A DNA stretch of 64,000 bases from NCBI RefSeq assembly GCF_018614075.1, contig NZ_JAGGOZ010000013.1:62001-126000 (forward strand). The letters run 5' to 3'. Origin of the DNA: Streptomyces sp. ISL-94. Lineage in GTDB: Bacteria; Actinomycetota; Actinomycetes; Streptomycetales; Streptomycetaceae. Position numbers and translations under genes: made by a program. This document shows, one piece after another, positions 34,270 to 52,708 of the stretch; the stretch's first letter is position 1; every line of letters begins with the position of its first letter. The notes under the pieces were generated by a model, which was given only the letters and a program-made list of their open reading frames with translations, ran no database searches and had not been told where the DNA came from.

Positions 34270-36161
34270 GGCAGCAGACCGACCGGCGTCAGCACCGGGT
34301 CCCGGTCCCCGGTCAGCGGGACGAGGAACCGGCGGTCCAGGAACCGGTTGCCGCGTTCGCACGTGGTTTCCGAGACGAACAGGCAGACATGGCACGCGGC
34401 TCCGTGGAGGAAGTCAGCCGGGTCCTGTGGCAGGCGCTCGGCGCAGAGCGGGTCGGCCGAGCAGTGGCGGGCGTCGGTCAGGGCCCGGCGCACGATCCGG
34501 TCGAACTCCCGCTCTTCGGCCAGGGACACCAGACCGCCCAGGGTGCCCTCGGAGTCCGGGACGGCGGTGTAGATGAGGATGCCGGTCCTCGGATTGTGTT
34601 CGTCGCCCGCGTAGATCCGTTCGGCGAGCGAGGCGGAGTTGTAGCCGCACTCCAGGGCGATGGTGCGGATCAGCAGGTGGGAGAGGGTGTGCAGGGCGAT
34701 GTACCGCGCTCCGGGCCAACCGGAGTACGGGTCGAAGTCACTGGTCTTGCGGTCTGACTTCCGGTTGGCACGAAACCGTGCGTACGCCTTTCTGTGCGCC
34801 TCCATCTGCGGCGACTTCTCCATCCGAGCGACCCACTCGGCCATCAGACCGTCCCGCACGCGCAGGAAGACGCCCTCGCCGCGCACCTCACTCGCCGGTA
34901 CCCAGTTCCGGATCCCGCGGGACAGTTCGACGCGCGTGGCGATCTCCGGTGATTCGGGGTCGGGCGCGTCGAGTCGGGTGAACCCGATCAGCGCCCGTGC
35001 CTCACGCAGCCGCTCTACCTGCCTGATATCGGCGAAGAACTCGCTCAGACGGGCCGGCACGGGCATCTGCCGGAGTGCGAAGTCGTCGCTGGGGGTGGGA
35101 ACGGGACCGGAGAGCGCGTCCCATTCGGGTCCGAAGAGGTCGGCCTGGACGTCGGGGGCGGAGGGGGCAGACCCGGTGGCCCCCTGCTTGCGGGCCGTGA
35201 TCGCCGCGACCACCGCGTCGGCGTCGAACTCCTTCAGGAAGGTGAACTTGGGCATGCGCGACATGAAGTCGAACTGCCCCCGGTCTTCGATCAGTTCGAG
35301 GTCGGGCCAGTGGTCGTCCAGCAGCTTGCCGATGTCTCCGCCCTGCGCCTTGGGCAGTGCCAGGGCGCTGAGGGTGAGCGGGAACCACTGGTTGGACGCG
35401 CCCGCCACCATCAGGACCGGCTCCCGGCCGCAGCCGTTCGTCTCGTAGGTGCCGAGGTGCGGATGCCGTCCACGGCACCGGGGCAGATTCCGCCGGCCTC
35501 GTTCACCCATGGCTTCCCGGATGTTGCGCTTCACGCCGCAGGCGACGCACTCGATGGTGACGTTGGCGGCCTGGTTTCCGCCGTGGTCCTTCATGCGCAG
35601 CTTCGGGCGCGGTGTCTTGCCGCAGGCCTGCCCACGGTGCACATACGGGGTGTACGGGAACTCGTCGAGATGGCCGGCGGTACACACGAGGGTGAAACGG
35701 GCCGCCACGGCGAGCGGCTTCCCCCGCTTGCAGTCGTGGACGAACTTCGCCTCGTGCGGCGTCCGTGGGTTGGCGTTGACGAAGGCGAACTCGCCCGAGT
35801 CGATCGCGGCCAGCACATTGCACGCGGTGCAGCGCAGCCACTGCGGGAACGGCGTGACGGGCACTCCGACCCCCTGTGCCGCCCAGCCCTTCGGGTCCGC
35901 GTCGGCGCCCTCCAGCCAGGGGGCGGCCCGCAACTGCTCGACCTGGCCGCGTCCATAGCGCTGGAGCGACCGGTTGACGGCGGCGCGCAGCCGGGGCTCG
36001 TCGATGTCGTAGTCGGTGACACCGGAGTGACTCCAGGAGTCGATTCCCCGGATCAGGACCGAGAAGTTGGGCAGGTCTACGAGGGCGCCGACTCCGGCGG
36101 TGAACATGAGGTGGCTGGGCCGTACGGTGCCGACCCTGCGGTTGCTGCCCTGGCTGCTCAT
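34266..36161 (-). CDS. drmB: DISARM component DrmB, DUF1998 protein
   Basis: 631 residues. Zinc-finger-like Cys clusters include LRCTACNV (about 111) and IECVACG (about 204), plus CTAGHLDEFPY. The C-terminal DUF1998 domain is marked by ALHTLSHLLIR, ECGYNSASLAERIY, GILIYTAVPDSEGTLGGLV and CHVCLFVSETTCERGNRFLDR. DrmB partners the DrmA helicase in DISARM, where the pair binds DNA. ATG 36159-36161 overlaps the drmA stop by four bases. The in-frame sequence upstream of 36161 is drmA's own C-terminus in another frame. Confidence 0.9.
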   Translation of the reverse strand: MSSQGSNRRVGTVRPSHLMFTAGVGALVDLPNFSVLIRGIDSWSHSGVTDYDIDEPRLRAAVNRSLQRYGRGQVEQLRAAPWLEGADADPKGWAAQGVGVPVTPFPQWLRCTACNVLAAIDSGEFAFVNANPRTPHEAKFVHDCKRGKPLAVAARFTLVCTAGHLDEFPYTPYVHRGQACGKTPRPKLRMKDHGGNQAANVTIECVACGVKRNIREAMGERGRRNLPRCRGRHPHLGTYETNGCGREPVLMVAGASNQWFPLTLSALALPKAQGGDIGKLLDDHWPDLELIEDRGQFDFMSRMPKFTFLKEFDADAVVAAITARKQGATGSAPSAPDVQADLFGPEWDALSGPVPTPSDDFALRQMPVPARLSEFFADIRQVERLREARALIGFTRLDAPDPESPEIATRVELSRGIRNWVPASEVRGEGVFLRVRDGLMAEWVARMEKSPQMEAHRKAYARFRANRKSDRKTSDFDPYSGWPGARYIALHTLSHLLIRTIALECGYNSASLAERIYAGDEHNPRTGILIYTAVPDSEGTLGGLVSLAEEREFDRIVRRALTDARHCSADPLCAERLPQDPADFLHGAACHVCLFVSETTCERGNRFLDRRFLVPLTGDRDPVLTPVGLLP

Positions 36162-39100
36162 CGCTGTGCCTTCCTGACCGTGCCGGCCGTGACGGGCCCG
36201 TACTCGTCGCTGTCCACGGTGCTCGCCGTGTCCGGGTCGGTGTCGGAGTCGGTCCCGGGGGCGCCGAACGTCCAGTCGGGACCGTCGCCCGAGGGTTCTT
36301 CCAGGAAGGCGCCACCGCCGGGGAGGAGCAGGTTGATCTCGTTCTCCGTCTCGCGCATCGACATGCCGACGGTCAGTTCGGTCCACCGGGAGCCGTCCGC
36401 CCGACGCAGCAGGCCGTTCACGACGGTCGTCTTGTGCTTCTCCTTGCGGTAGGCGAGGGCCGAACTGCTCTCGTCGCGTTTGCGGCGCCATTCGTCCTTG
36501 AGCCGGTCCAGTCGTTCGCTCAGGTACTGGCGGGGCCGGTCGCCTCCCACCCGTTCAGCCCGTTCGAGGAGCCGGCGTTCGACGTCTTGGGCGAGCGGTC
36601 CGTCGAGGTCGACGTGGTGGGCGTCGAGGTTGCGGGAGGAGTCGTAGGCCGCGTGGCGCAGCGCGGCGACATAGGTGGCGGCGACACCGCGGTCGAGCGC
36701 GCGGCGGGTGTACGGGGTCACCGACAGTGCTTCCACCCGGCGGTAGAACGTCGCGTGATAGTGCTCGAAGTCCTCGTAGTGGGCGAGGTCGCGGGGGCGC
36801 GACCAGTTGTAGAGGGTCACCACCAGGCCCGGACGGGCGGCGTCACGGCCGACCCGCGAGGACGCCTGGATGTACTCGGCGGTGTTCTTCGGCTGGCCCA
36901 CGACGAGCATCAGGCCGAAGCGGGAGACGTCGACACCGACCTGCAGCATGGAGGTGGCGAGGACGACGTCGACGGCCTGTCGCACGGTCGGTGTCATGGA
37001 CGCGCGGGGTTCGCGCTTGTCCTTCATGGCGGCGGCGTACTCGCGCAGGAAGGCCCGCCTGCGCACCGAGGTGTCCCGCTCGGGGTCGAACTCGATCTCC
37101 AGCCGCTTCAGGGCCGCCCCGATGTCCGAGGAGGAGATGCGGGAGGTCAGTTCCTGGATGCTGAGCATCCCGGCTCTGCTCACGATGCGGTCCGACAGCG
37201 TGTCCTGGCCCTTGCGGCTGCCGTTGGACCGCACGCGGGTGGTGATGTCGTCGTCCATGTACCGCCGCATGCCGGCGAGTTCACGGGTCGCGTTGAAGTA
37301 GCCGACGAGGGTCATGTACGGGTCCGCCGGCCTGCCGTACTCGTCGAAGAGCTGCTGCGCCGCGAGCAGCAGGATCTCCGCGACGCGGATCTCGGCGGCC
37401 TTGAGACGGGTGCCGTGCGCGCATACGCCGAGGTAGCGGCGGCCGGGGTTCTCCCCGCTCAGCTCCACCTGCCGGGAGAAGAAGGTGTCGCCGACGTCCA
37501 GCACCTGGGGCGGGAAGACGGCGACCTTGCGGGCGAAGACACCGCGCACCTGGTCGGCGGCCCGCTTGGTGGTCGCGGTGGAGGCGACGATTTTCGGGCC
37601 GACGTCATGACGTTCTCCGTGAACGTCGGTGAAGCTCCACGTGCACAACTGATCGACGGCTGCCTCGAAGAGACCCACGGTGGTGCCGAGGGCTCCGGAG
37701 ATCAGGTGCAGCTCGTCCTGGATGATCAGGTCCGGAGGCCGCAGGCGGGTGACGGGCTGGGCAGTGACGCCGGGCAGGTCGCCCCTGGCGTTGTGGCGGC
37801 CACCGCAGCCGGTCTTGGCGTCCAGGTCGTCGTGGCGGTAACCGTGGCGAGGACACAGCTCGGTGACCCTGCCGAACAGCAGGCCGGAGTAGCCGTTCCA
37901 CGGGAGCTGGGCGAACTTGTCGACCGTGGCGATCAGCAGCGAGGGCGCCAGCCGGTAGATCTCCTCGTCGACGGTGAGCACGGGGATGCCCTCGCCGAGC
38001 GCTTCACGTCGGGAGAAGGGGCAGCGGTCCTCCCCCTCGCCGCGAGGGCAGTACAGCAGGACTCTGCGGCGGCCTTCGTCGTACTCCATGTTCGCGCGGG
38101 CGGTCAGCCCGCTGCCGCACCAGGGGCAGGTGAGGACCTGCAGGACCCGCGCGTGCTTGTCGCTGGCGTTCTCCTTGGCTTCGGCGATCTGCTCCTTGGC
38201 CTCGTCGAACCAGTTCGGTGAGACGGAGGTGCCCACCCAGAGCCCGATCCGGAACGGGGTGGTTCCCCAACGCCGGTCCCGCGCGAACTCCTCGCGGCGC
38301 AGGACTTCGCAGGCGCTCACCAGGGCGGCGGCGCGCTGGAACTGCTGGGCGGTCAGCAGCCGCAGGGTGTAGCGCATGAGCACGCCCACGCCCGCCTCAC
38401 CGCTGCGGGCGTCCGCTCCCGAGCCGATGGTCCCCTGGAGGCGCCGCAGTGCGAAGGTGTAGGCGGCGAGTCCGAGATACGCCTCGGTCTTGCCGCCGCC
38501 GGTCGGGAAGAACAGCAGATCGACGAGGGCTTCACGGCCGGTGCCGCGGTGCGGGTGTCCGGGCTGGGTGAGGGAGTCGATGTTCAGCAGGACGAAGGCC
38601 AGCTGGAAGGGCCGCCAGCTGGCTGCCGCCTTGCCCTTGCCGTGGACCTCGTCGTAGGCCTCCCGGTAGGACCGGGAGTCGTTCTCGCAGCCGGTGCGGA
38701 CGGCCGCGATGGCCGTGTTGCGGCGCTGCAGGGCCATGGCCCGGTTGGCGAACCGGAAGGCCAGCAGGGCCGTCTCGTCGGCCACCAGCCGGTCGATGCC
38801 GAGGGTGATGCGGTCGCAGACCTCGAGTGCCTGCTCGATCGCGGTCTCGGCCGCTTCTCGGAGGTCTTCGGGGAGCGAGGCGGCACTGCGACGCTGCTGC
38901 TCCAGCCACGTGCCGTATCCGTCGGCCAACGGGGCAAGAGCGGCGCTGAGTTCGGCTCGGCGGCCCGGCACGGCGAGTGCCGCCAGCTCGTCCATGCCCA
39001 GTTCCAGCCCCTTGAGGAGGTCCTGCTCCTCGAGGGTCGGCGCGGTGGTCGCCCGGACGTCGTACTCGGGAAGCCAGACGGTGGTCAGGCGGTGTGCGTT

Positions 39101-39988
39101 GCGCTCTCCGTCACGGACGTGCGCGTGAACGGCGACGTTGCGGCCCTTGGCGTGGCTGAGGCTGTCCCGGTAGAGCAGGCGCAGCCGCCGTTCCTCGGCG
39201 TCCTCCGGCGCGTGGTCGTGGCTCGCCGGGTCGAGGGGGTCGTCGACCGGCAGGAAGACGGCTGCCTGGTCGTCGGGAAAGGCGGTGACGTCGATCTCGG
39301 TCTGGAAGAGCCAGTGCGCGTCACGCGCGTCCGCGCTGTCCGGCTGCCGGTTCACCAGGGCCAGCTCGACTATGCGCAGGTCCTCGGCGCCCGTGCGGCC
39401 GCTGTGCCGGCGTACCTGCACGTCGAGGACGACGGTGTCGCCGTCGAGTTGAACGGTGCGATCGGCCCCGTCGGTCACGTCGATGTCCACCAGGCGCTCG
39501 ACCGGCTCACGTGACCAGACCCTGCGCGTCGTCCCCCGCTCGGTGGCCTCGTCCGACTGGGTGTAGCGACCCCAGCGGACGGTGGCACTGAGCGTGCCGA
39601 CGGAGGCCGGAGCGGTGAAGGACAGTCCCATGGACGATGCCCAGATGTGTCCGGCGGCCTGGGGACTCAACCGGTCCTGCAGACCGCTGTCGTCACCTTC
39701 CTGCTCGTCACCCGACTCCCCTTCCGCGGCCTGGGCGGCCGCGCGGGCGATCCGGTCGGCAGTGACGGCCTGCGGGCGCGGACCGAGCATGCCGACCAGG
39801 TACCGGTCACGGGGGCCGGAGGAGGCGCTCGGCAGCGTTTCCGTCTCACCGTCCCAGGGCCCCAACAGGTCCCGGCGGATGTAGTGCACGAGTGCGTCGC
39901 GCACCGCGTAGGAGTCCCCGGCACGGAACGTCTGGGGAACTTCGTCGAGCGGATGCGGAACAGCGGCCTGGGCAGGCTGGGCCGGCAT
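36158..39988 (-). CDS. drmA: DISARM component DrmA, SF2-type helicase
   Basis: 1276 residues. Walker A is FFPTGGGKTEAYLG (about 493-506), a four-cysteine knuckle follows (CPWCGSGL about 621, and CPRGEGEDRC), the DExH box is IIQDELHLI (about 756), SATTKR is motif III-like, and the motif VI-like SRVGRD is at about 1044. The N-terminal 450 residues are a DISARM-specific region. DrmA with DrmB forms the conserved DISARM core against phage DNA. AAGGA before ATG 39986-39988 sets the start. The leftward promoter probably lies at 40050-40090. Confidence 0.9.
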   Translation of the reverse strand: MPAQPAQAAVPHPLDEVPQTFRAGDSYAVRDALVHYIRRDLLGPWDGETETLPSASSGPRDRYLVGMLGPRPQAVTADRIARAAAQAAEGESGDEQEGDDSGLQDRLSPQAAGHIWASSMGLSFTAPASVGTLSATVRWGRYTQSDEATERGTTRRVWSREPVERLVDIDVTDGADRTVQLDGDTVVLDVQVRRHSGRTGAEDLRIVELALVNRQPDSADARDAHWLFQTEIDVTAFPDDQAAVFLPVDDPLDPASHDHAPEDAEERRLRLLYRDSLSHAKGRNVAVHAHVRDGERNAHRLTTVWLPEYDVRATTAPTLEEQDLLKGLELGMDELAALAVPGRRAELSAALAPLADGYGTWLEQQRRSAASLPEDLREAAETAIEQALEVCDRITLGIDRLVADETALLAFRFANRAMALQRRNTAIAAVRTGCENDSRSYREAYDEVHGKGKAAASWRPFQLAFVLLNIDSLTQPGHPHRGTGREALVDLLFFPTGGGKTEAYLGLAAYTFALRRLQGTIGSGADARSGEAGVGVLMRYTLRLLTAQQFQRAAALVSACEVLRREEFARDRRWGTTPFRIGLWVGTSVSPNWFDEAKEQIAEAKENASDKHARVLQVLTCPWCGSGLTARANMEYDEGRRRVLLYCPRGEGEDRCPFSRREALGEGIPVLTVDEEIYRLAPSLLIATVDKFAQLPWNGYSGLLFGRVTELCPRHGYRHDDLDAKTGCGGRHNARGDLPGVTAQPVTRLRPPDLIIQDELHLISGALGTTVGLFEAAVDQLCTWSFTDVHGERHDVGPKIVASTATTKRAADQVRGVFARKVAVFPPQVLDVGDTFFSRQVELSGENPGRRYLGVCAHGTRLKAAEIRVAEILLLAAQQLFDEYGRPADPYMTLVGYFNATRELAGMRRYMDDDITTRVRSNGSRKGQDTLSDRIVSRAGMLSIQELTSRISSSDIGAALKRLEIEFDPERDTSVRRRAFLREYAAAMKDKREPRASMTPTVRQAVDVVLATSMLQVGVDVSRFGLMLVVGQPKNTAEYIQASSRVGRDAARPGLVVTLYNWSRPRDLAHYEDFEHYHATFYRRVEALSVTPYTRRALDRGVAATYVAALRHAAYDSSRNLDAHHVDLDGPLAQDVERRLLERAERVGGDRPRQYLSERLDRLKDEWRRKRDESSSALAYRKEKHKTTVVNGLLRRADGSRWTELTVGMSMRETENEINLLLPGGGAFLEEPSGDGPDWTFGAPGTDSDTDPDTASTVDSDEYGPVTAGTVRKAQR

Positions 39989-40050
39989 GCGATGGGTCCT
40001 TTCGGACAGGGCCGTTGGAGCAGGGACGTGCACCGGTGGTGTGGCAGCAC

Positions 40051-40081
40051 GAGAAATATAGACCCGTTGACTCAGTTCACA
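40051..40081. promoter_or_regulatory. Divergent promoter region with shared TTGACTCAGTTCACA element, copy 1
   Basis: GTTGACTCAGTTCACA (40066-40081) reads toward the RelE-UvrD gene and includes a -35-like TTGACT. On the minus strand TATATT (about 40055-40060) could be the -10 for drmA, with the element overlapping its -35 zone. The same element occurs upstream of the sORF-EcsC pair and, as CTCAGTTCACA, of the large helicase gene. Confidence 0.6.
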
Positions 40082-40169
40082 CAACGAATACGGGGGGTCC
40101 GTCGCTCGACATCCTGTCGGTCTCTAGGCTGGTGCCCGCCTGCCGCCCGCCCGCGACCCGAGGACTCCT

Positions 40170-42341
40170 ATGCCCCGCCTCGCCCTCTCCGACGACTTCG
40201 TCGCGGATCTGATCTCCCTGCAGAGACCTGTCCAGAAGGAAGTCAACGGCACGATCCAGATGTTCCGAAGCCTGACCGTGCCTCAGCTTCATGCCAGCAA
40301 GGGAATGCATCTGGAGAAGCTCGAGGGGGCGCGCGACCCGCGGATCCGCACGATCCGGGTCACCCGGTTCTACCGGGGGGTCCTCCTCGCCCCGGACGAC
40401 GGCAGCGAGCTGTTCACCCTGCTCAGAGTGGCACCGCACGACGAGGCGATCAACTGGGCCTGCAGGCGTGCCTATTCGGTCAACGGCGCCACCGGAGGCT
40501 TGGAGGTGCGCAATGTCGAGGCACTCGAACAGATGGAGACCTACTTCGAGACGAAGGCGGTCGAGACGCCGACCCGGCTCTTCGCGCACCACTCCGACAC
40601 CGTGCTGCGTGACCTCGGCATCGACGAGCAGGTCCTGCGACTGGCGCGCGTGTGCGTCACGGCAGACGACCTGGCGGTCATGGCGCCTCCCATGATGCCG
40701 GCCGACCAGTACGAGGTACTGGAGTACCTGGCGACCGACTGCTCGCCCGAGGACGTCTGGGAGCAACTGATCGCCCCGCGCGGGCAGACGGTGCGCACGG
40801 CGGAGGACCGGCCGGCCGTCACGCTCGGCGAGGCGATCCTCAACACGCCCAACGGCATCGTGGAGGTCACCGGCCCCGGTGAGCTGGAGCGGATCCTCAC
40901 CGAGGACTTCGTTCGCTGGCGCGTCTTCCTGCATCCGGCCCAGCGCCGGTACGCCTACCACCCGGGCTTCAACGGACCGGCTCAGGTGACGGGCGGCCCT
41001 GGCACCGGCAAGACGGTCGTCGCCCTGCACCGGGTACGGCACCTGCTGCGCACCGGACGCGAGGGCGACCGGATCCTCCTCACCACCTTCACCAACGCCA
41101 TGGCGGCCGCCCTGCGGGACAGCCTGGCCCTCCTGCTCGGCGATGCCGACGCGCATCTGCTCGACCGCGTCGACGTCACGACGGTGGACTCGCTGGCCGC
41201 CCGGGTCATCCGGGAAGCCAGGGGCGGCTCGCCGAAACCGCTGTCGGCAGCAGCGGAGAAGAGCGCGTGGACCCGCGCCGCCGCGCGCGAGGACCTGCCC
41301 TGGTCGGAGCGCTTCCTGTCCCAGGAGTTCCGCAACGTCGTCCTGGCTCAGGGGCTGCGGACGCCTGAGGAGTACCTGAGATGTGTGCGCAGGGGACGCG
41401 GCACACAGGTGGGGCGAGTGCAACGGGCCCGGCTGTGGCGGGTCATGGAACGGTTCACGGGGGATCTGGCCTCGCGCGACTCCGCGACGTACACCATGGT
41501 GTGCGACCAGGCCGCCCGGATTCTGGCCGAACGGGGGCCGCGCTACCGCCACGTCGTGGTGGACGAGGCCCAGGACCTGCACCCGGCCCAGTGGCGGGTG
41601 CTGCGGGCCTGCGTGGCCGAGCAGGCCGACGACCTGTTCCTCGTCGGTGATCCCCATCAGCGCATCTACGACTCCCGGGTCTCGCTGCGGTCCCTGGGAG
41701 TCAACGTGCGCGGACGGACGTCCCGACTGCGCCTCAACTACCGCAGCACGGAGGAGATCTTGAGGTGGTCCACGTCCCTCCTGGACGGTCAGCCGGTCGG
41801 CCGACTCGGAGAGGACGACGAGGACGACGGCGGCCAGGACTCGCTGCGGGGCTACCGCTCCGAGCTGCACGGCCGCGTTCCCGTGGCTCGCGGTCATGGC
41901 AACCAGGACGACGAACTGCGCGCGCTGGTGGACCAGATCCGCACGTGGGTCGACCAGGACGGGGTGAAGCCGTCCGAAGTGGCGGTGTGCGCCCGGTTCA
42001 ACACCCTGGTCGACGCGGTCATCGCCCGCCTGCGCCGTGAGGGCGTCCCCGCCGTCGCGGTCAAGGACGACCCGGGGCCGACGGTGCCGGGTGTGCGCGT
42101 GGCGACGATGCACGCCATGAAGGGGCTGGAGTTCCGCTGCGTGGCCGTCGTCGGCGTGACATCCGGCGTGCTGCCGTTCGCTCCGCAGGTGACGCCGGCC
42201 GACGAGGACGCCGTGCAGCACCGTTCGGATCTTCTGGCCGAGCACTGTCTGCTGTTCGTGGCCTGTACGCGGGCACGCGACGCGCTGGCGATCTCCTGGA
42301 ACGGTGAGCGGAGCCGCATACTGGACCCCGTCGCCGGCTGA
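40170..42341 (+). CDS. UvrD-like SF1 helicase with RelE/ParE-like N-terminal domain
   Basis: 723 residues. Residues about 1-105 resemble a RelE/YafQ-type fold (QLHASKGMHLEKLEG, IRTIRVTRFYRGVLL). Helicase motifs are complete: GGPGTGKT (275-282), VVVDEAQD (462-469), LVGDPHQRIY, RLNYRS (521-526), VATMHAMKGLEF and LFVACTRARD. Helicase and ATPase activity is expected; whether the RelE part is toxic or a binding module is unknown. GAGGA lies five bases before ATG 40170. It is divergent from drmA and convergent with the large helicase-nuclease gene, and shares an upstream element with it. Confidence 0.88.
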   Translation: MPRLALSDDFVADLISLQRPVQKEVNGTIQMFRSLTVPQLHASKGMHLEKLEGARDPRIRTIRVTRFYRGVLLAPDDGSELFTLLRVAPHDEAINWACRRAYSVNGATGGLEVRNVEALEQMETYFETKAVETPTRLFAHHSDTVLRDLGIDEQVLRLARVCVTADDLAVMAPPMMPADQYEVLEYLATDCSPEDVWEQLIAPRGQTVRTAEDRPAVTLGEAILNTPNGIVEVTGPGELERILTEDFVRWRVFLHPAQRRYAYHPGFNGPAQVTGGPGTGKTVVALHRVRHLLRTGREGDRILLTTFTNAMAAALRDSLALLLGDADAHLLDRVDVTTVDSLAARVIREARGGSPKPLSAAAEKSAWTRAAAREDLPWSERFLSQEFRNVVLAQGLRTPEEYLRCVRRGRGTQVGRVQRARLWRVMERFTGDLASRDSATYTMVCDQAARILAERGPRYRHVVVDEAQDLHPAQWRVLRACVAEQADDLFLVGDPHQRIYDSRVSLRSLGVNVRGRTSRLRLNYRSTEEILRWSTSLLDGQPVGRLGEDDEDDGGQDSLRGYRSELHGRVPVARGHGNQDDELRALVDQIRTWVDQDGVKPSEVAVCARFNTLVDAVIARLRREGVPAVAVKDDPGPTVPGVRVATMHAMKGLEFRCVAVVGVTSGVLPFAPQVTPADEDAVQHRSDLLAEHCLLFVACTRARDALAISWNGERSRILDPVAG

Positions 42342-42420: not shown

Positions 42421-45400
42421 TCAGACGCGGATCTCGCGCACGACGACCGTGCGGGTCTTGCCCTGGGCCGCGTCGTACGAGATCTCGCGTCCTGTCGGCT
42501 GCCAGGTCAGCGCGTGGCCGAGCGGCGAGGACGGAGAGACGATGTCCGCCTCCTCGGTGGGCAGTTCGGCGATCGTGTACAGGGTGTCCTCGTCCACCTG
42601 GCCGTCGAACTCCAGCCGGAGCAGCGCGCCCGGGATCACGACGTCGGGGACAGCCCCTTCCCGTCCGACGCCGACGGCGTCGAGGAAGGTCCGCAGGAAG
42701 GCGAGGCGCCTGGTGCGCCGGTCGCGCTGCTCGGCCTGGGTCTTCCTGAGGAAGACCAGCTGGGCCGCGTCCGCTCCTTCGGGGGTCTCGGGGGAACCCT
42801 CGACCGCCGCCTGCAACTGCTGCACCTCGCGCACCAGCCGCTGGAAGGCCGGGGCGGGGATCTCCCGAACCGGCGCAAGGCTCGGCGCGGTCGGGGCGGC
42901 CATCGCCGAGCCCGCGGACGGTACGACGTGCCCCGCCGACCGGGCCGAGTCCGCCTGCCGTACGGCAGGGGCCGCCCCGGACACCGTCTCCCCAGCCGTC
43001 CGTGCGGGTACGGCCCCGTTGTCGGCGGTCAAGGCACGTGGCCGCGTCGGAGCGGGCGTCGCCCGTCGGGCCTGACCACGAAGGGGCTCGCGCGGGTCCG
43101 TGGCCCTGGGTGCGGGCACCGCTCCGAGGGGGGCTGCCGTTCCGGTCGGCGCTTGCGCTCGCGCCGTGTCCCCGTTCCCCGCCTCCTGGCTCGATCCGCC
43201 CCGCGGCTCGAACGGCACGCCGTCACCGGGCACGTGACCCACGCCGGTGACGCGACCGGCCTCGGCCGCGTGCTCCGCCACGGCCGCGTCACCGCCGGTC
43301 GCCGCGCCGCTGCCGGCGGCTGCCTCACCGCCGGTCGCCGCCCCAGCCGTCGGTTCCACCCCGCTGGGCCCGGCGTCATCGGCGGCACCGGAGCCTTCCG
43401 GATCCCGCCCGGCCGGTTCGATGCCCAGCCGTTCCAGCTCGGCCCACAGCGGGGCCAGCGCCTGCTCGCGGTCGAGGTGGAAGCGACTGCCCCTGATCCG
43501 GACGAACGTCCAGTCGACGCGTTCCAGGTCGCGCTGTCTGGCGGCCGCGGTGGAGGCGTCCTCCCCCTCGGCGAACGCGTCGCCGTCGCAGGCGACCGCC
43601 AGCCGGCGCGTCCCGCCTTCCACCACCAGGTCGATCGTGTGGCGGCCCACCTTGTATCCCGGACGGACCCGGTGGCCCCGTGCCGTCAGTTCCAGGTACA
43701 CCTTCTGCTGGAACAGGCTGTCGAACGCTTCGTGCCGGACATCGGACAGAACCTCGCCCTCGACCGCGACGACGTCCTCCTCCCCGGGACGGGAGAGGTG
43801 ATCGAGCCAACCCCGGCGCAGGTCGTTCTCGTGGAACTGTTCGGCCCTCGCGCTGTGGAACACCCACACCTGGTCCTGGGCACGCGAGGCCGCCACGTTG
43901 ATGCGCTGCTCGTAGGTCTTGCCGTTGAAGCCGCCCGGGACCGCTCCGGCGGCCGTGGTCGCCGAGTTGACGAAGGAGATGAACATGATGTGCCGCTCGT
44001 CGCCCTGGAAGTCCTCGGCGTCACCGACCCGGATGCGCCGCTCCTCGCGCTGCTCGTAGTCGAGGCGCTCGGCAAGCAGGTTCTCCAGCACCGTCAGGTG
44101 TCCCTTGCTGGCGCGCAGGCTGATGACGCCCATGGTCTTCCCGTCGTAAGCGGGGTCGGCACAGCAGCGCACGATCGCGTCGACGAGGGCCTCGGCCTCG
44201 GCGACGTTGGTCAGCCGGGTGTTGACGCCGATGGCTTCGCCGGTCTCGACGTACACCGTGCGGACCGGGGGCAGCCGGTCGGCGCCGTACTGGCGCAGCG
44301 GCAGTAGATCACGGTTGTAGCAGAGGTCATTGGAGAAGGAGATGATCTCCGGCATGCACCGGAAGTGCTCCTTGAGCATGAGTGTGCCGCGGCCCGCCGA
44401 GAGCGCTTCCGTGAGGTCGAAGAAGCTGGACTCGGGGCCGAACAGGCTGCGGACGTCCGGCTCCAGCGCGGTGAGCAGACGATCCCTGAGGTGGAAGTAC
44501 TCGTCCTGCTTGAGGCCTACGTTGGACGGACTGACCTGCTTGCTGTCGCCGACGACGACCATCCGGTCGGCGAGCCAGCTCAGCAGCATGGCCTCCAGGC
44601 CGGACTGGCTGGCCTCGTCGACGATGACGACGTCGAACAGACCCGGCCGGTCCATGGGTACGGTCTCGGCGACCTGGTGCAGGGGCATGATCCAGGCAGG
44701 CACCGCCGTCTGCGCCTTGCGCAGGGCGGCCTGCGCGTCGCGCCGGTAGCGGTGCTGGTACTTGCCCTTGATGCGCCGTGCGGCCTGCTGGTAGGCGCTG
44801 AGTGCCCGGGACTGGTCACCGGTGAGCAGGCCGAGGCAGCGGTGCCAGGCGCGGGCGGCGGCGAGCCGCGCGAGCATGATGCGGGCCTCGTCGTCGGCCT
44901 CCGTCAGCCGTCGGCGCAGGGTTCGCTCGGCTTCGGGGTCGGTCAGCCGCTCCATGCGGTCGCGCCACGCGGACCAGGCCCAGGCCTCGGCGAGCGAGGG
45001 CAGTCGGGCGTCCCAGGCGCTGTCCTCGTGTGTGGCGGTGATCCGCTCGGCCAGGGCCGGGAACGCCTCGCGGACACGGGCGAGGGCCACGTCCTGCTCG
45101 GCCCGCAGCCGGGCGGCCTCGCGCACCTCGGCCATCTCGTCGCTGAACGTGCGGTAGCCGTCGGGGTCACGGTCGCGGACGGTGCCGAGTGCGCGCACCA
45201 CGGCGGGCGACACATCGGGCCGGTCGCCCCAGGCCCGCAGCAGTTCCTCGGTGTCCGCGATGACCTTGCGCGACTGTTCGGCCGCGCGCAGAGTGGTCGA
45301 CGCGCGCAGCAGGGTGCGTACGGCGTTCTCGACGGACGGGTCGTGCCAGGTGACGACCGCGAGGGCCGGGGAGGTGGCCGCGGCGGCCAGGACGTCGGTG

Positions 45401-48400
45401 CGGGCGGCGGCGACGGCGAGCAGTGCGTCCAGCACCTCCGCGTCCTGTCGCAGCCGCGCGAGGCGCGGTCCGTGTCCCAGCCAGGCGGCGACGGGCGTGC
45501 CCCACTCGGACTCCACCTGGGCCAGGCGCAGTTCCAGCTGGACGCGGGCGAGGACGACGGCCGAGGTCGGCACGTCCTCCGGCGCCCGGCCGTCGACCCG
45601 CACGGTCTCTACGAACGCGCCGGCCGCCTTCGCCAGCCTGGAACGCATACCGAGGGGTCCGCGCAGCTTCTGTCCCTGACCGAGGCCGTCGTGCAATGCG
45701 GTGACCTGGGCGAGTGCCGTGGCCGGGTCGTACTGCTCCAGGCCGCTGACCATGGCCGTGCCCAGGGTGGCGAGCGAGTTGTCGACGGCCGCCAGGGTTT
45801 CGGTGACGGCGGCCCGCCGGCTGCGTGCCTGCCAGTCCTGCCCCTCCGTCACCTGCCTCAGGAGCGTCGCGGCCCAGTCACCGGCAGCGGCGGCGAGAGC
45901 CGCGGCGCGGGCGCGGGTGGTGGAAAAGACGTCGAGCGCCGAGGACAGCCGCTGCTGTTCCCCCTCGCCGAGACCCCTCACGGCCGTGTCGTACTCCGCG
46001 CACAGCGGGTCCTGGCGCGCGGCCGTGTGTGCTTCCTCGGCCGACCGTACGATGCGCACAGCCTCCTCGAAGTCGCCGGGGCCCGGCAGTTCGGAGGGGC
46101 CGGGCACCTCGGCCGCGAGGGCCTGGTGGTGCGGGGTGTACGCACGGGTGGTGTGCAGCAGCCGCAGGGCGTCGTCGGCGCTCAGGGCGGGCTGTTCCTG
46201 CGTGACCGGGCCCAGCCAGTCGTACCGTTCCGCCTCCGCGGTGAGGCGTCCGGCGATCTCCTGCAGGCTGCCGGTGTAGTCGCCGATCTCCGCCTCGAAG
46301 CGGTGGGTCTCCTGTTCGCGCAGTACGGCGAGGTCGCGCAGCATGGCCTGCTGGGCGGCACGGGCCTGGGCGAGGCGCGATTGGAGTGTCCGGATCCCCT
46401 TGCTGGATGCCTTCGCGTCATAGCCGGCGTACTCGCCGAGGATCCGCTGCACGGACGCCTCCAGCTCCCGCTGGGCGGCCGCGCCGTCCTCGGTGCGGCT
46501 CACGCACAGGTCACGGACGGACTCCGGCAGCTTGTCCCGCAGCACGCGCAGGGCGCGCGGGGTGTGGCTGGTGATGAGGACCCGCTTGCCCTGCGCGAGC
46601 AGGTCGGTGACCAGGTTGGCGATGGTGTGCGTCTTGCCGGTGCCGGGCGGCCCCTGGACGACGACGAGCCGGTTGGCGCGCAGGCGTTCGGCGATCGTGC
46701 GCTGCTCCTCGTTGGCAGGCAGTGCGAAGTACATCTCGTCGCCGCCCTGCGGCGTTCCGTCGTCCTCCACCGCCGCGAGGTCCGCCGCGGTCAGCGCGCC
46801 GTCCCGGCCCGCGATGTAGCCGAGCAGTGCGGTGGGCGGCGTGCCCGCGTCGATCTGCCGGGCGATGGCCTTGAGAGCGTCCATGGTGGAGCGGCGGCTG
46901 CGCTCGCGCAGGACGAGTGCCGGGGTGAGTCCCACCTGCGGGATGTCGAGGCTGCGCGGCTTGGCGCGCTCGACGGTCGGCGCGTAACTTCCGGCGCTGT
47001 GTGCGGCGTTGACCCAGCTGCGCAGGGCGGTGTGTACGGCGTCGAGGTGTTCGGGGTCGGTCACGTCCAAGGCGCCTTCCAGCACCTCGACGATCGTCTC
47101 GCGCACGGCGCCCGGCACGTGCTGGGCCCCTTCGAGCATGCCTTCTTCGAGTTCCAGGCCCGCGCCGGTGGGGTCGGGGGCGGCGGTGAGCGTGCCGGTG
47201 GAGGGGTCGAGCCGGATGGTGGCACGGTGGGTGATGAGGTGCCGTTCCACCCGCTGTCCGGTGGTCGTCTGCCAGGTGAGCCGGCCCAGCCCGAGCACGA
47301 GTTCGTACGCCTCACCGAGGCCCGCGGCGTCCTCGTGCATCTTGTGCAGCCGGTCGTACAGCCTGACCAGGGGGTCGATCGCGCGGCGCCGTTCCGCCCA
47401 GGCGAGCCATTCCTGTTCCCAGGCGGCGTACAGCTTCTCGATCTTCTCCCGCTGGGGGTGTTCGTCCAGCTCGTGGTAGGTCTTGTCGAGCGGGATGCCC
47501 CGGGACCAGTCGGGGAACTCGGGTTCGATACGCCGGCGCAGGTGCGGGGCGCGAGGCTCCTTGAAGTCACGGATCCGGGTCTCGTCCACCCAGGGCGCGA
47601 GCAGAGCCTTGGGGTGTGGCGCGTCCTCGCGTTCGGGGCGGGCGACGGTCAGCCAGGCCGGGTCGTCTCCGGCGAGAGCGCCGTCGATCATCACCTCGAC
47701 GCCGTCGTCGTCCGGCAACTCGTCGAACCACACGGCGCCGGCCGCCCCGTCGAGCGTGCGCACGGGGCGCGTCTTCGACTCCTCGGCCTCGGCGAGGAAC
47801 CGGAAGATCTGACGGACGCGAGCGGCGTCCAGATCGTCGGCGGAGACCTCCGGGACCACTGATCGGGCGCTGTGCCGTCCGGGGCCGGTCGACTGCGCCG
47901 GGACGACGTCGAGCGCGGCCGGTGCGGTCGCTCGCTGCTTTCCTGCGGCGGCCGAGGCCGCCTGCCCGGCCCTGTTCACGGGCTCCGGGGCGTCGTCCGG
48001 CTCCGCGAACAACGACTGCTGCCGCTCACCGAACAGTACGGACTGGTCGTAGGCCATCGGTACGGGGCGCTCGCCGACCACCGTAGCGGCGGCCGACGCT
48101 GTGCTGAACGTGACGCTCCTCCGGTCGCGCCCCGGGAAGCGGACCTCGATGTCCAGGTCACCGGCGGTGCCGGCCGGAATGCTGTAGGCCCACGTGGCGG
48201 AGACCCTGCGCCCCGTACGCAGCGTGCCCTCAAGCTCGTGGTCGAGCACGTCACTGCGGTAGTCCTGCACCTGACGGCCCGTCTTGCCGTACGGCCCTCC
48301 CCGCACCAGCAGGGTGATGCCATCGAGGTCGAGCGGCTGCCCGGTGCCGTTGCTCACGGACAGGGTGCACCGCACCAGGTCGTCACCCTGCCGGTACCCG

Positions 48401-48531
48401 TGACTGTCCTCGGCGTCCGCCAGTGCGTATGGCACGACGTCGTCCACCCGCACATACAGGCCGTCGTCAAACTGGTAGACGGAACCGACCGGCCGCAGAC
48501 CGTCACTCAGCCCGCGCTCATCCTGACTCAC
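42421..48531 (-). CDS. Giant SF1 helicase with Vsr/DUF559-like nuclease and GreA/GreB-like C-terminal domain
   Basis: 2036 residues. The N-terminus (about 40-150) is a beta-sandwich-like domain (LSVSNGTGQPLDLDGITLLV). The SF1 core has VVQGPPGTGKTHTIANL (about 624-640), a long helical insertion (about 690-1280), VVIVDEASQS (about 1302), VVVGDSKQV, EHFRCMPEI and NVAASRAQDQ (about 1545). A Vsr/DUF559-type nuclease follows (about 1600-1700: KVGRHTIDLVVEGG, LAVACDGDAF). After a low-complexity Ala/Pro/Gly linker, residues about 1910-2036 look like the GreA/GreB C-terminal domain (VSPSSPLGHAL). The helicase-Vsr part resembles Hhe-type defence proteins; the Gre-like tail is unusual. GTG 48529-48531 is the start. 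Confidence 0.87.
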   Translation of the reverse strand: MSQDERGLSDGLRPVGSVYQFDDGLYVRVDDVVPYALADAEDSHGYRQGDDLVRCTLSVSNGTGQPLDLDGITLLVRGGPYGKTGRQVQDYRSDVLDHELEGTLRTGRRVSATWAYSIPAGTAGDLDIEVRFPGRDRRSVTFSTASAAATVVGERPVPMAYDQSVLFGERQQSLFAEPDDAPEPVNRAGQAASAAAGKQRATAPAALDVVPAQSTGPGRHSARSVVPEVSADDLDAARVRQIFRFLAEAEESKTRPVRTLDGAAGAVWFDELPDDDGVEVMIDGALAGDDPAWLTVARPEREDAPHPKALLAPWVDETRIRDFKEPRAPHLRRRIEPEFPDWSRGIPLDKTYHELDEHPQREKIEKLYAAWEQEWLAWAERRRAIDPLVRLYDRLHKMHEDAAGLGEAYELVLGLGRLTWQTTTGQRVERHLITHRATIRLDPSTGTLTAAPDPTGAGLELEEGMLEGAQHVPGAVRETIVEVLEGALDVTDPEHLDAVHTALRSWVNAAHSAGSYAPTVERAKPRSLDIPQVGLTPALVLRERSRRSTMDALKAIARQIDAGTPPTALLGYIAGRDGALTAADLAAVEDDGTPQGGDEMYFALPANEEQRTIAERLRANRLVVVQGPPGTGKTHTIANLVTDLLAQGKRVLITSHTPRALRVLRDKLPESVRDLCVSRTEDGAAAQRELEASVQRILGEYAGYDAKASSKGIRTLQSRLAQARAAQQAMLRDLAVLREQETHRFEAEIGDYTGSLQEIAGRLTAEAERYDWLGPVTQEQPALSADDALRLLHTTRAYTPHHQALAAEVPGPSELPGPGDFEEAVRIVRSAEEAHTAARQDPLCAEYDTAVRGLGEGEQQRLSSALDVFSTTRARAAALAAAAGDWAATLLRQVTEGQDWQARSRRAAVTETLAAVDNSLATLGTAMVSGLEQYDPATALAQVTALHDGLGQGQKLRGPLGMRSRLAKAAGAFVETVRVDGRAPEDVPTSAVVLARVQLELRLAQVESEWGTPVAAWLGHGPRLARLRQDAEVLDALLAVAAARTDVLAAAATSPALAVVTWHDPSVENAVRTLLRASTTLRAAEQSRKVIADTEELLRAWGDRPDVSPAVVRALGTVRDRDPDGYRTFSDEMAEVREAARLRAEQDVALARVREAFPALAERITATHEDSAWDARLPSLAEAWAWSAWRDRMERLTDPEAERTLRRRLTEADDEARIMLARLAAARAWHRCLGLLTGDQSRALSAYQQAARRIKGKYQHRYRRDAQAALRKAQTAVPAWIMPLHQVAETVPMDRPGLFDVVIVDEASQSGLEAMLLSWLADRMVVVGDSKQVSPSNVGLKQDEYFHLRDRLLTALEPDVRSLFGPESSFFDLTEALSAGRGTLMLKEHFRCMPEIISFSNDLCYNRDLLPLRQYGADRLPPVRTVYVETGEAIGVNTRLTNVAEAEALVDAIVRCCADPAYDGKTMGVISLRASKGHLTVLENLLAERLDYEQREERRIRVGDAEDFQGDERHIMFISFVNSATTAAGAVPGGFNGKTYEQRINVAASRAQDQVWVFHSARAEQFHENDLRRGWLDHLSRPGEEDVVAVEGEVLSDVRHEAFDSLFQQKVYLELTARGHRVRPGYKVGRHTIDLVVEGGTRRLAVACDGDAFAEGEDASTAAARQRDLERVDWTFVRIRGSRFHLDREQALAPLWAELERLGIEPAGRDPEGSGAADDAGPSGVEPTAGAATGGEAAAGSGAATGGDAAVAEHAAEAGRVTGVGHVPGDGVPFEPRGGSSQEAGNGDTARAQAPTGTAAPLGAVPAPRATDPREPLRGQARRATPAPTRPRALTADNGAVPARTAGETVSGAAPAVRQADSARSAGHVVPSAGSAMAAPTAPSLAPVREIPAPAFQRLVREVQQLQAAVEGSPETPEGADAAQLVFLRKTQAEQRDRRTRRLAFLRTFLDAVGVGREGAVPDVVIPGALLRLEFDGQVDEDTLYTIAELPTEEADIVSPSSPLGHALTWQPTGREISYDAAQGKTRTVVVREIRV

Positions 48532-49680: not shown

Positions 49681-49953
49681 CGTCGGTTTTCGGATGGATG
49701 GCTCAGGACGACTCCCAGCGCGCCGCGATGAACGAACTCACGCCTGGGTCGAGGGCCGCACCATCGAGCTGCTGCGCCGCTCCCCCGACGAGACGATGCC
49801 GCGCATCTCCAGCCGTTCGTCCCTGACATCGGCGAACGGCGGCGCCTGAAAAGGCATAGATTCAGCGGACAACTGCCCCTGGCCCGAACGGTGTCGGACG
49901 GAACGGGGCTTGGCCTGGGCACCCGTCAGGAGTGTCATGGGGAAAGGAGGCGC

Positions 49954-52500
49954 ATGCGCGCCCAGGAGATCACCTTCCTGAAGCTCGTCCAAGGGGACAA
50001 GCAGTTCCAGGTGCCGCTTTACCAGCGCACGTACAGCTGGGGCAGGGAGCAGCTTCAGCGGCTGTGGGAGGACATCGGGGAACTCGTCGACCAGCACCTG
50101 GCCGGCGAGCCGGCCACGCCGCACTTTCTCGGCTCCGTGGTTCTCGCACCCGGTCAGATCCAGGCGGGCGGGGTGCAGAGGTGGCTGGTGGTGGACGGAC
50201 AACAGCGGTTGACCACGCTGATGCTGGCCTTCACCGCGCTGCGCGACCACCTGAAGGAGACGGGTGACGCCCGCGGGGTGGACCGGGTGCACCGCCAGAT
50301 ACTGGTCAACGAGTTCCACGAGGGCGCGGACCACTATCGGTTGCTGCCCACGCAGGCGGACCGGGACGCGTACACCGCCTGTGTCCAGTCCCGGGCGGAC
50401 GCCGGCGGGGGCGACAACATCGGGGCTGCCTACCGGTTCTTCCGCGGTGCGCTCACCCAGGGCCACGAGGCGGGCGACGACCACTGGACCGCCACGGTCG
50501 AGACCGTACTCAAGGACCTGCTCTCCATCGTGGAGATCACCGCGGAGCCGGGCGACAACGTGTACCGGATCTTCGAGTCGATCAACAACACGGGTGTCGG
50601 GCTCAGTCAGAGCGACCTGCTGCGCAACTACGTGTTCATGCTGCTGCCCAAGCGGGGCGAGCGGATCTACCAGGAACTGTGGCTGCCCATGCAGCAGAGC
50701 CTCGGCCCGAAGAACCTCGACCTCCTGGTCTGGCTCGATCTGGTGGTACGCGGCCACTACAAGACCAAGCAGAGTGAGATCTACCGCGAGCAGCAGAAGC
50801 GGCTCCAGCCGCTGGCCGGCGACGAGGACGCCCTGCAGCGCGACATCGAGCAACTTGCCGAGCGGGCCGAGCGATTCCTGCGGATCACCGACCCTGCGCG
50901 TGAGCGGTCCCCCGCCCTTCGGGCGGTCCTGGAACGTCTGGCCTCCTGGGGCGGCCAGACGCACTACCCTCTCGCGCTGCACCTGCTGGATCTCCTCGCG
51001 GTCGGCGGGACGACGCCCGACGACGCGGCGCAGGCGCTGGGCTACGTCGAGTCCTATCTGGTGCGACGCCTGATCTGTCAGACGCCGACGAGCGGCCTCA
51101 ACCGAATCTTCATGGAAGCGCCGAAGGAGCTCGAGACCGACCGGCCGGCCGCCGAGGCGGTGCGGCGGTTCCTGTCCGGCCGGCGGCGGCGTTGGCCGAG
51201 CGACGAGGAACTGCGCGAGGCGGTCCGCGCCAAACCGTTCTACTGGTCCGGGCGCCCTCTACAGCGCAGCTTCATCCTGCGCCGCCTGGAGGAGAGCTAC
51301 CGCGCCTCCGAGCCCGTGGACTTCGTCAAGGCATCCCTCAGTGTGGAGCACGTCCTGCCGCAACGCCCCGCTCCCGCGTGGTTCGACCTGCTCGCAGAGG
51401 AGACGGAGCCGAATCAAACTCCGCAGGAGCTGCACGACCTGCTGGTGCATACGCTCGGCAACCTGACGCTGACCGGTGACAACTCTAAGCTTTCCAATCA
51501 CCCCTTCGAGCGAAAGCAGCAGATCCTCGACTCCAGTGCCCTGCGCATGAACCTCGAGATCGCCTCGGCTCAGCGCTGGGGCAAGGCGCAGATCCTGGAA
51601 CGTGCCGACCGTCTGGCCGACCGCGCCGTGGAACTGTGGCCCGGTCCGATCGGCGGAGTCAAGCCGAGCGGTGAGGAATCGCCGGGCTGGATCGAGCTGC
51701 GGGCCGCCCTGGTGGCGATGCCGAGCGGCACCTGGACGACGTACGGCGATGTCGCGGAGCTGATCGGCAGCCACCCGGTGCCCGTCGGGGCCTACCTGGG
51801 CGCCAATACGAGCGTGATCGGCGCCTACCGGGTGCTCACCGTGGAGGGCAGGATCTCCCCGTCGTTCCGCTGGGCGGACGGCAGTGACCGGCCGCCGCCG
51901 CAGGAGCTGCTGGCGAGCGAGGGAGTGCGCTTCGACTCCCTGGGGCGGGCCCACCCTTCCCAGCGTCTGTCCGCCGCCGAGCTGGCCACCCTGCTGGGCA
52001 GGGACGTGGCGCAGCCCGTAGCGCAGGACCCACTCCCGGAGGGGGAGGACACGGAGGCGGCCGAGCGGTTCCGCGCGCAGTTGCGGGAGAGCTGGCCCGA
52101 CGCGTACGCCGGAGTCATGGCAATCCTCGACTTCTGGCGCCGCCAGGGCGGCCACGTGACCTACGGCCGGCACGAGGAGACGAGCTGCTTCCCGATGCTG
52201 GACCTCGGGACCAGCCGTCGGCCGCACCTGATGTGGCCGGTCGGGATCTACCCCGTCAGCGGAACGGTCGAGGTGGTCTTCCAGTACCTGAAGACCCGCA
52301 GCCCGTTCGACGACACGGAGCAGCGCCGGGGGCTCCTGAACCGCCTGAACAAGATCGACGGCATCGACCTGCCCGAGGCGAAGCTGGAGCTGCGCCCGTC
52401 CTTCCCGGTCAGGGTCTTCGCGGAGCACGGTGACGAGATCTGCGAAGTGCTGGACTGGTTCGTGGGGGTGGCGGCGCTGGATCTGGCGCGGAGGGACTGA
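49954..52500 (+). CDS. GmrSD-type DUF262/DUF1524 nuclease with MGMT/ATL-like domain
   Basis: 848 residues. The DUF262 domain carries QVPLYQRTYSW (about 19-29), VVDGQQRLTTL (about 79-89) and IFESINNTGVGLSQSDLLRNY. The DUF1524 HNH-like part has SVEHVLPQ (about 463) and HTLGNLTLTGDNSKLSN (about 499). Residues about 580-655 resemble an alkyltransferase-like DNA-binding domain (MPSGTWTTYGDVAELIG, GAYRVL) where the reactive-cysteine PCHR motif is replaced. A further C-terminal domain of about 170 residues is unrecognised. GmrSD enzymes cut modified phage DNA; the ATL-like module may read modified bases. AGGAGG lies three bases before ATG 49954. Confidence 0.87.
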   Translation: MRAQEITFLKLVQGDKQFQVPLYQRTYSWGREQLQRLWEDIGELVDQHLAGEPATPHFLGSVVLAPGQIQAGGVQRWLVVDGQQRLTTLMLAFTALRDHLKETGDARGVDRVHRQILVNEFHEGADHYRLLPTQADRDAYTACVQSRADAGGGDNIGAAYRFFRGALTQGHEAGDDHWTATVETVLKDLLSIVEITAEPGDNVYRIFESINNTGVGLSQSDLLRNYVFMLLPKRGERIYQELWLPMQQSLGPKNLDLLVWLDLVVRGHYKTKQSEIYREQQKRLQPLAGDEDALQRDIEQLAERAERFLRITDPARERSPALRAVLERLASWGGQTHYPLALHLLDLLAVGGTTPDDAAQALGYVESYLVRRLICQTPTSGLNRIFMEAPKELETDRPAAEAVRRFLSGRRRRWPSDEELREAVRAKPFYWSGRPLQRSFILRRLEESYRASEPVDFVKASLSVEHVLPQRPAPAWFDLLAEETEPNQTPQELHDLLVHTLGNLTLTGDNSKLSNHPFERKQQILDSSALRMNLEIASAQRWGKAQILERADRLADRAVELWPGPIGGVKPSGEESPGWIELRAALVAMPSGTWTTYGDVAELIGSHPVPVGAYLGANTSVIGAYRVLTVEGRISPSFRWADGSDRPPPQELLASEGVRFDSLGRAHPSQRLSAAELATLLGRDVAQPVAQDPLPEGEDTEAAERFRAQLRESWPDAYAGVMAILDFWRRQGGHVTYGRHEETSCFPMLDLGTSRRPHLMWPVGIYPVSGTVEVVFQYLKTRSPFDDTEQRRGLLNRLNKIDGIDLPEAKLELRPSFPVRVFAEHGDEICEVLDWFVGVAALDLARRD

Positions 52501-52658
52501 ATGCGCGAATGTCACGGGGCTGCACCCTCTCAGAGAGCCGACCGCGCGGTCACCGGCGGCGAGACACCGCATCCTGCGCGGAGGGACCGCCGTGCCCTTA
52601 CTTTCCTCTCGGGCCGGTAGAAAATGGGCGGCCATGGGACGAATCCGAGTGGCCGGGG

Positions 52659-52689: not shown

Positions 52690-52708
52690 TCCGGGTGTGG
52701 AGAACGAG

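Follow-up and report, generated by a model that had tools for sequence, protein, structure and literature searches.

Class 1 DISARM systems comprise DrmD, DrmMI, DrmA, DrmB and DrmC, and in Hhe, ProA and the PADLOC candidate PDC-S37 a superfamily 1 (SF1) helicase is followed by an MTES_1575-type nuclease. Gre domains have also been placed in biological conflict systems, in a TPR-GreA/B-C-PIN proposal that is reportedly due to Burroughs and Aravind. In the passages of that paper that deal with it, the GreA/B-C domain lies between TPR and PIN in a predicted counter-invader protein and is predicted to engage the RNA polymerase beta' coiled coil (eLife 2021, PMC8195603). Passages of a preprint on ARMADA, which defends against phages and needs all four of its components, describe ArmD of the type II system as a GajB-like helicase to which a RelE-like domain is joined (PMC12458937). 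Here we analysed a 64,000-nucleotide stretch of Streptomyces sp. ISL-94 (contig NZ_JAGGOZ010000013.1, positions 62,001 to 126,000; the whole stretch is called the window below), which encodes a protein, named HVG here, that joins an SF1 helicase, a Vsr-like domain and a Gre-like tail. We hold with moderate confidence, the case being evenly poised, that HVG serves the Streptomyces-family DISARM island around it as an accessory effector or sensor, and that its tail would dock on RNA polymerase without stimulating transcript cleavage while its Vsr-like domain would not cut.

The open reading frame (ORF) of HVG comprises 2036 codons and a stop on the minus strand, with a coding-like G + C content at third codon positions (GC3) of 0.90. 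Its parts are given below with the ratios of nonsynonymous to synonymous substitution rates (dN/dS), which were computed for eight chosen pairs, and with the AlphaFold2 (AF2), Foldseek and VIA structural evidence where it applies.

42421..48531, minus: HVG, helicase with Vsr-like domain and Gre-like tail, 2036 residues (ORF; Pfam, PADLOC, NCBIfam)
47842..48531, minus: variable N-terminal region, residues 1-230 (no Pfam match at E ≤ 1; dN/dS 0.28-0.62)
46369..46713, minus: SF1 motif I region, residues 607-721, Walker A GPPGTGKT at 627-634 (Pfam AAA_11, E 1.7e-16)
43858..44664, minus: later SF1 motifs, residues 1290-1558, DEAS at 1305 (Pfam AAA_12, E 4e-14 at 1381-1558)
43435..43713, minus: Vsr/MTES_1575-like nuclease fold, residues 1607-1699, with Q1608, D1634, A1647, D1649 and A1654 (Pfam E 1.6e-21; alignments)
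42877..43404, minus: fast-evolving Ala/Pro/Gly-rich linker, residues 1710-1885 (identity 0.15-0.30 per 50-residue block; dN/dS; sequence)
42652..42855, minus: Gre-like coiled coil without the GreA-type acidic tip motif, residues 1893-1960 (AF2 helices 1893-1911 and 1922-1952)
42424..42651, minus: Gre C-terminal FKBP-like domain with SPSSPLG, residues 1961-2036 (Pfam, NCBIfam, AF2, Foldseek, VIA)

A preliminary description of the window, made from its letters, had placed an SF1 helicase, a Vsr-type nuclease and a Gre-like segment in one chain, and Pfam, NCBIfam, AF2 and Foldseek bore this out. It had recognised the Gre-like part by its C-terminal motif, which is there; the module itself is larger, spanning residues of about 1890-2036 and including the coiled coil. 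Like GreA, GreB and Gfh1, the tail has a coiled coil and an FKBP-like domain, with fold and sequence homology across its whole length; unlike them, it is part of a helicase protein, has no GreA tip motif and falls below the Pfam gathering score. HVG shares with the TPR-GreA/B-C-PIN systems, as described in part of PMC8195603, a GreA/B-C domain in a predicted conflict protein, but it has a helicase, a Vsr-like domain and the Gre coiled coil as well, and neither TPR nor PIN was among its 25 Pfam families at E ≤ 1. No helicase fusion of GreA/B-C appears in the helicase passages of PMC8195603, the whole word GreA is absent from PMC12839542 and PMC7159879, and the open-access literature searched yielded no helicase-Vsr-Gre protein and no Gre fusion in DISARM. 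The tail is unusual, as had been supposed, with a precedent in idea in the GreA/B-C conflict systems (PMC8195603): GreA/B-C domains in such systems have already been proposed, and what is new is that the whole Gre-like module is carried by an SF1 helicase that is linked to DISARM and whose nuclease has decayed.

The AF2 model and the profile of the tail were built on an alignment of 25 tails. The model, with a mean predicted local distance difference test (pLDDT) score of 91.1, has helices at residues 1893-1911 and 1922-1952 followed by a mostly beta C-terminal domain. Foldseek matched it to 14 PDB chains at E ≤ 0.001, all of them Gre-family or RNA-polymerase-interacting proteins (GreA, GreB, Gfh1, a GreA/Gfh1 chimera, Nitrosomonas GreA/GreB and one RNA-polymerase-interacting protein), and the next match had E 0.44. 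When the two halves were compared alone by VIA, the C-terminal domain scored Z 9.5 against the GreA C-terminal domain, and the coil (model residues 3-72) ranked Gfh1 (Z 8.6) and E. coli GreA (Z 7.8) at the top. Among sequence models, the NCBIfam GreA model matched residues 1933-2031 at E 4.5e-9 (36.3 bits, below the full-length cut-off of 161) and a GreA relative matched residues 1897-2031 at E 4.6e-6, also below its full-length cut-off. The Pfam GreA_GreB match (residues 1963-2034, E 0.0029) was weak at 18.0 bits, under the gathering score of 26.9; as a sole basis for the tail it was set aside in favour of the profile, fold and survey evidence. The FKBP-like fold that had been expected in the last 130 or so residues was therefore found by structure prediction, and the HVG tail is, on these models, a genuine Gre-like fold of coiled coil and FKBP-like domain.

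The 25-tail profile also found the separate GreA of the host at E 1.2e-14 (a per-genome E-value) over profile positions 4-150 of 152, coil included. The coil tip of this GreA and of a second GreA from the family reads EEGDLRENG or EEGDLKENG, and the acidic DLxEN-type tip of GreA is needed for transcript cleavage. No such motif occurs in any of the 25 tails, nor in any of 18 aligned tails spanning both of the lineages described below. By its sequence the HVG tail is not a cleavage factor, so that the earlier wording, a transcript-cleavage-factor-like domain, does not hold in the catalytic sense, and docking is likelier than transcript cleavage. The loop motif SP(S/T)SPLG, by contrast with the tip, was kept in 22 of the 25 tails, and that of the host GreA (SPQSPLG) is close to the SPSSPLG of HVG; in Gre factors this SPSSPLG-type loop of the C-terminal domain contacts beta'. 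These findings also bear on a Gfh1-like inhibitor, which we regard as rather unlikely: a triggered HVG, with its helicase as the sensor, would shut transcription down in dormancy or in a block of phage transcription. The best PDB matches of the tail profile were to the anti-cleavage factor Gfh1 (E 1.2e-5 to 2.1e-5), ahead of the GreA/Gfh1 chimera and GreB (both 1.4e-3), and a coiled coil kept without the GreA tip motif would suit such a role. The profile nevertheless fits the host GreA far better than it fits Gfh1, the similarity to Gfh1 may reflect merely the missing GreA motif, and the coil is variable, with dN/dS values of up to 0.55.

Conservation along HVG was measured as the share of aligned proteins with the residue of the window, per 50-residue block, in an alignment of 27 proteins from which three relatives were omitted (L010, whose tail is out of frame; L019, which meets a contig end; and L029, which is rearranged; L and G numbers are our handles for fetched loci and genomes). 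This share was 0.96 and 0.89 for residues 601-700, 0.75-0.92 for residues 1301-1600 and 0.87-0.89 for the nuclease domain; it dropped to 0.15-0.30 in the linker (1701-1900) and recovered to 0.62-0.67 in the tail. The 12 columns of GPPGTGKT and DEAS were identical in all aligned proteins save one T-to-S and one A-to-S cell, and the SF1 helicase motifs of HVG are intact. The dN/dS values were 0.25-0.84 for the linker, 0.12-0.55 for the coil, 0.15-0.53 for the Gre C-terminal domain and 0.03-0.13 for the nuclease. The tail is thus under less constraint than the enzyme domains, and its conservation beyond a fast-evolving linker indicates that it is not there by chance.

The tail was present in frame in 24 of 29 fetched loci of HVG relatives, the close ones being held by Streptomyces and Actinacidiphila. 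With the 25-tail profile we surveyed 200 genomes of the family, which overlap with the loci of HVG relatives, and 396 genomes of the phylum. At least 18 of the 200 family genomes had a tail match in an ORF of at least 1295 residues, two of these ORFs (G107 and G190) being classed from length and tail score alone. Eight of the 18 (G191, G194, G038, G032, G006, G127, G057 and a contig-end copy in G014) form a second lineage, 25-28% identical to HVG in the later portion of helicase and nuclease. Three scanned members (L054, L055 and L058) contain DUF4011, helicase and MTES_1575 domains. All proteins of this lineage end in the same Gre-like module, which Pfam GreA_GreB matched at E ≤ 0.01 only in L054 and L055. 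Two or more defence helicase lineages that are deeply divergent share this tail. In L055 the gene directly follows DrmA-DrmB-DrmC. Among the matches listed in the phylum survey, the tail occurred in ORFs of more than 1100 residues only in the genome of the window and in G064, of the same genus; G499 has a 1062-residue open frame with a tail match, and nearly all others look like separate GreA genes. HVG matched 409 plasmid records, none covering 80% of it, and among the 30 matches listed the alignment stops at residues 1704-1708, before the tail. A Nocardiopsis relative (L027, 9731-14539) has DrmA and DrmMI relatives nearby, an E-D-E-D-H nuclease and no Gre tail, and is a likely tail-less outgroup; because of this relative, the tail was probably added within streptomycetes. 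Broken or split copies in several genomes (L010, L029, L065 and L063) are a sign of turnover.

The Vsr-like domain (residues 1607-1699) scored 76.6 bits on Pfam MTES_1575 (cut-off 38.2), and the best solved relative of its profile was 3hrl, an endonuclease-like protein (E 4.1e-6). The family pattern suggests that five positions, E, D, E, D and H, are catalytic. Q-D-A-D-A stands there in the window protein and 19 others (20 of 27 aligned), E-D-E-D-H in four (L024, L025, L027 and L028), Q-D-A-D-T in L026, Q-D-E-D-A in L018 and E-D-E-D-P in L031; a second alignment gave E-D-E-D-H in L060 and in all seven second-lineage members, and Q-D-E-D-A in L064. Because L018 and L064 retain the second E without the first E and the H, the pattern suggests that the residues were lost as if stepwise. 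The Vsr-type fold claimed for HVG therefore stands, and the active enzyme does not for this clade, whose nuclease domain is probably dead because E, E and H of its relatives are replaced by Q, A and A; it is still strongly conserved, as the low dN/dS values above indicate.

The state of this domain weighs against HVG being a helicase-nuclease of the Hhe, ProA or PDC-S37 kind that degrades phage DNA and carries the Gre tail as a minor decoration, a reading to which we give little credence. The best whole-protein family matches of HVG in PADLOC and NCBIfam were indeed ProA, PDC-S37, MkoC and Hhe, and HVG has the order of SF1 helicase and MTES_1575-type nuclease of these proteins; the second lineage keeps E-D-E-D-H, and two of its scanned members reached 1032 and 1040 bits on NCBIfam ProA (cut-off 1500). 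Unlike Hhe, ProA and PDC-S37, HVG has no DUF4011, its nuclease residues are replaced and a conserved Gre tail is added. Its scores were far under the NCBIfam cut-offs (Hhe, 103.9 bits against 2000, with no Pfam DUF4011 match at E ≤ 1; ProA, 180.4 bits against 1500), and PDC-S37, for which no curated cut-off is shown, matched with 153.5 bits over 288-1342 of 1550. The label of Hhe type given earlier is accordingly dropped.

The genes around HVG are as follows.

36158..40084, minus: DISARM DrmA (NCBIfam DrmAS, 1450.8 bits, cut-off 950)
34266..36491, minus: DISARM DrmB, family match from residue 119 of the listed ORF (NCBIfam 708.3 bits, cut-off 240; Pfam MZB)
33496..34395, minus: DISARM DrmC, phospholipase D (PLD)-like (NCBIfam 236.6 bits, cut-off 133)
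60576..63962, minus: DISARM DrmMI methyltransferase, N-terminus extending past the window
G000:C45:126892-130143: DISARM DrmD, outside the window beyond DrmMI
49891..52500, plus: GmrSD-type nuclease/restriction protein that ends in an MGMT-like DNA-binding domain; 19 of 24 close relatives also have it upstream of HVG
40170..42341, plus: convergent partner, 723 residues, RelE-fold N-terminus (about residues 1-100) and UvrD/GajB-like helicase (Pfam, AF2, Foldseek, VIA)

DrmA, DrmB and DrmC lie downstream of HVG, and DrmMI and DrmD lie on its other side; since all five are present, the island is a class 1 DISARM with a block of genes between DrmMI and DrmA. The defence context that had been suggested was thus stronger than claimed, with DISARM genes flanking HVG on both sides. 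Unlike class 1 DISARM as described, HVG and its convergent partner are extra genes. The order in L013 is more compact (DrmMI, a helix-turn-helix gene, GmrSD, HVG, UvrD, DrmABC). Among 24 close relatives (L003-L023, L026, L029 and L030), DrmA was found in 18, truncated in L014; L010, L020 and L026 gave no DrmA match despite more than 7 kb of further flank, and the stretches of L016, L018 and L019 end early. HVG does not, then, always occur with DrmA, as a core subunit of DISARM would, and since the HVG-UvrD pair stands beside no DrmA match in L010, L020 and L026, the pair is separable from DISARM.

The partner adjoins HVG convergently in 22 of the 24 close relatives (in L016 it is truncated by the contig end), and in the other two, L018 and L019, the stretches stop at contig ends. 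L064 is more distant; there a UvrD relative sits about 2.7 kb away on the opposite side of the gene, and the fetched stretch ends within it. The UvrD-type helicase begins at residue 256 (Pfam), with K281 in Walker A and D465 in Walker B, where ArmD has K266 and D454. The first 120 residues were modelled as a RelE-type fold (AF2 pLDDT 84; VIA Z 11.3 against Thermus RelE) in one AF2 model, two of five models exceeding pLDDT 70 and the others lying near 43. Foldseek returned 13 rows at E ≤ 0.001, one of them an insecticidal protein with a RelE-type fold. By sequence, RelE gave no sound Pfam match in the partner, and the PDB search returned only ATP synthase b chains (E ≥ 0.065). With a RelE-like fold and a GajB/UvrD-like helicase, from fold models and Pfam, the partner is likened, without direct sequence comparison, to ArmD of ARMADA type II as described in part of PMC12458937. 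Unlike there, it stands beside a DISARM-type DrmA and HVG and not beside an ARMADA YprA helicase, the YprA-type helicase of the island being DrmA itself, and the passages of PMC12458937 do not describe ArmD in DISARM. HelD and HelR were considered for the partner, because HelD also touches RNA polymerase, and rejected: four HelR/HelD NCBIfam models, with cut-offs of 419-1100 bits, gave 39-53 bits, less than the 77-91 bits of the UvrD, PcrA and first Rep models.

That the Gre-like module is a generic docking or dimerisation domain for another protein of the island, such as the RelE-UvrD partner or DrmA, and not for RNA polymerase, seems to us doubtful. It would agree with the adjacency of HVG and partner where DrmA had no match, and with the resemblance of the FKBP-like half to SlyD, trigger factor and FKBPs (VIA Z 6.8 and below), but the closest structures are polymerase-binding factors, and the second lineage keeps the tail though the UvrD query found no match beside its genes in stretches of 5-20 kb, except in L058 (34% identity, about 6.5 kb off).

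We return to HVG as a proposed accessory DISARM protein tethered to transcription. Its Gre-like module would dock at the secondary channel of RNA polymerase, on the beta' coiled coil, as published for GreA/B-C domains, and the long flexible linker would allow the SF1 helicase to load onto nucleic acid beside the transcribing polymerase, be it foreign DNA, an R-loop or nascent RNA. The Vsr-like domain of the DISARM-linked clade would not cut and was probably retained for DNA binding, and damage, presumably against phage, would be done by the helicase itself or by its partners (the convergent RelE-UvrD protein, DrmC or GmrSD).

Several observations weigh against this proposal. Whole-model template modelling scores (TM-scores) of the tail against Gre proteins were low (0.35-0.46), perhaps because its two halves are placed differently, and unrelated helical hairpins scored Z 7.0 and 6.9, near the 8.6 of the coil, so the coil match alone is modest. 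FKBP-like folds can bind partners other than RNA polymerase. SP(S/T)SPLG was absent from three of the 25 tails (L024, L025 and L028; L024 was furthest, with SPGTDLA), and docking could have been lost along with the Gre tip motif. The tail reached dN/dS values of 0.53-0.55 in some pairs, some copies are broken (L010 and L029, and a remnant in L065), and the probable loss of nuclease activity is read from sequence.

The position of some relatives near rpoC was also weighed. In L060 and L061 a divergent Gre-tailed copy (about 49% identical; L060:1658-11189) lies 262 bases downstream of rpoC, of which the genome has one copy; in L024, which is on the contig of G049, the gene lies about 6 kb downstream of rpoC, and in L065 a remnant lies about 6 kb downstream. 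Direct adjacency was confined to the two closely related genomes L060 and L061, and the other loci examined gave no rpoC match. As a control we used 32 genomes of that other genus of the family, 28 of them without the gene: of these, 20 had an rpsL motif about 7.7-18.3 kb beyond rpoC, in 8 it was not reached, and gene content varied; nor was rpsL reached in the four genomes carrying the gene or remnant near rpoC. Because the stretch behind rpoC varies even without HVG and the other loci have no rpoC match, the link to the rpoC operon adds weakly to the case and is no more than suggestive.

Further genes lie within or beside the island. A small gene at 48928-49680 (plus), beside the start of HVG, matched the PADLOC candidate PDC-S29 (E 1e-14). 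A fusion of a MerR regulator with DNA polymerase III beta-clamp domains is split over two overlapping ORFs at 52430-53801 (plus); this copy may be frameshifted or misassembled, because the junction in relatives looks, by eye, more like one uninterrupted gene. A type ISP/IIG restriction-modification enzyme is encoded at 53977-57453 (plus), with a relative of about 65% identity within about 1 kb of the second-lineage gene in L056, L057 and L058, and a putative 8-oxoguanine DNA glycosylase-like protein at 57866-58636 (plus). To the right of the window, a gene matching PADLOC PD-T4-6 and kinase models (L052:5304-6659, on G000:C45) adjoins DrmD.

Taken further, the island may represent a transcription-coupled branch of DISARM, in which a nuclease-dead helicase, physically tied to RNA polymerase through its Gre-like tail, works with a RelE-UvrD helicase acting on ribosome-bound mRNA, so that an invader would be recognised by its expression, as transcription-translation complexes, and not by sequence or methylation alone; we offer this tentatively and think it improbable. 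The analysis also points to HVG and the RelE-UvrD protein as two accessory components that recur beside class 1 DISARM in the Streptomyces family, and HVG retains a nuclease domain under strong purifying selection although the expected catalytic residues are replaced. If its tail binds RNA polymerase, a defence helicase would be steered to transcription, which, if true, would offer a testable account of how restriction-like systems locate foreign DNA under expression.

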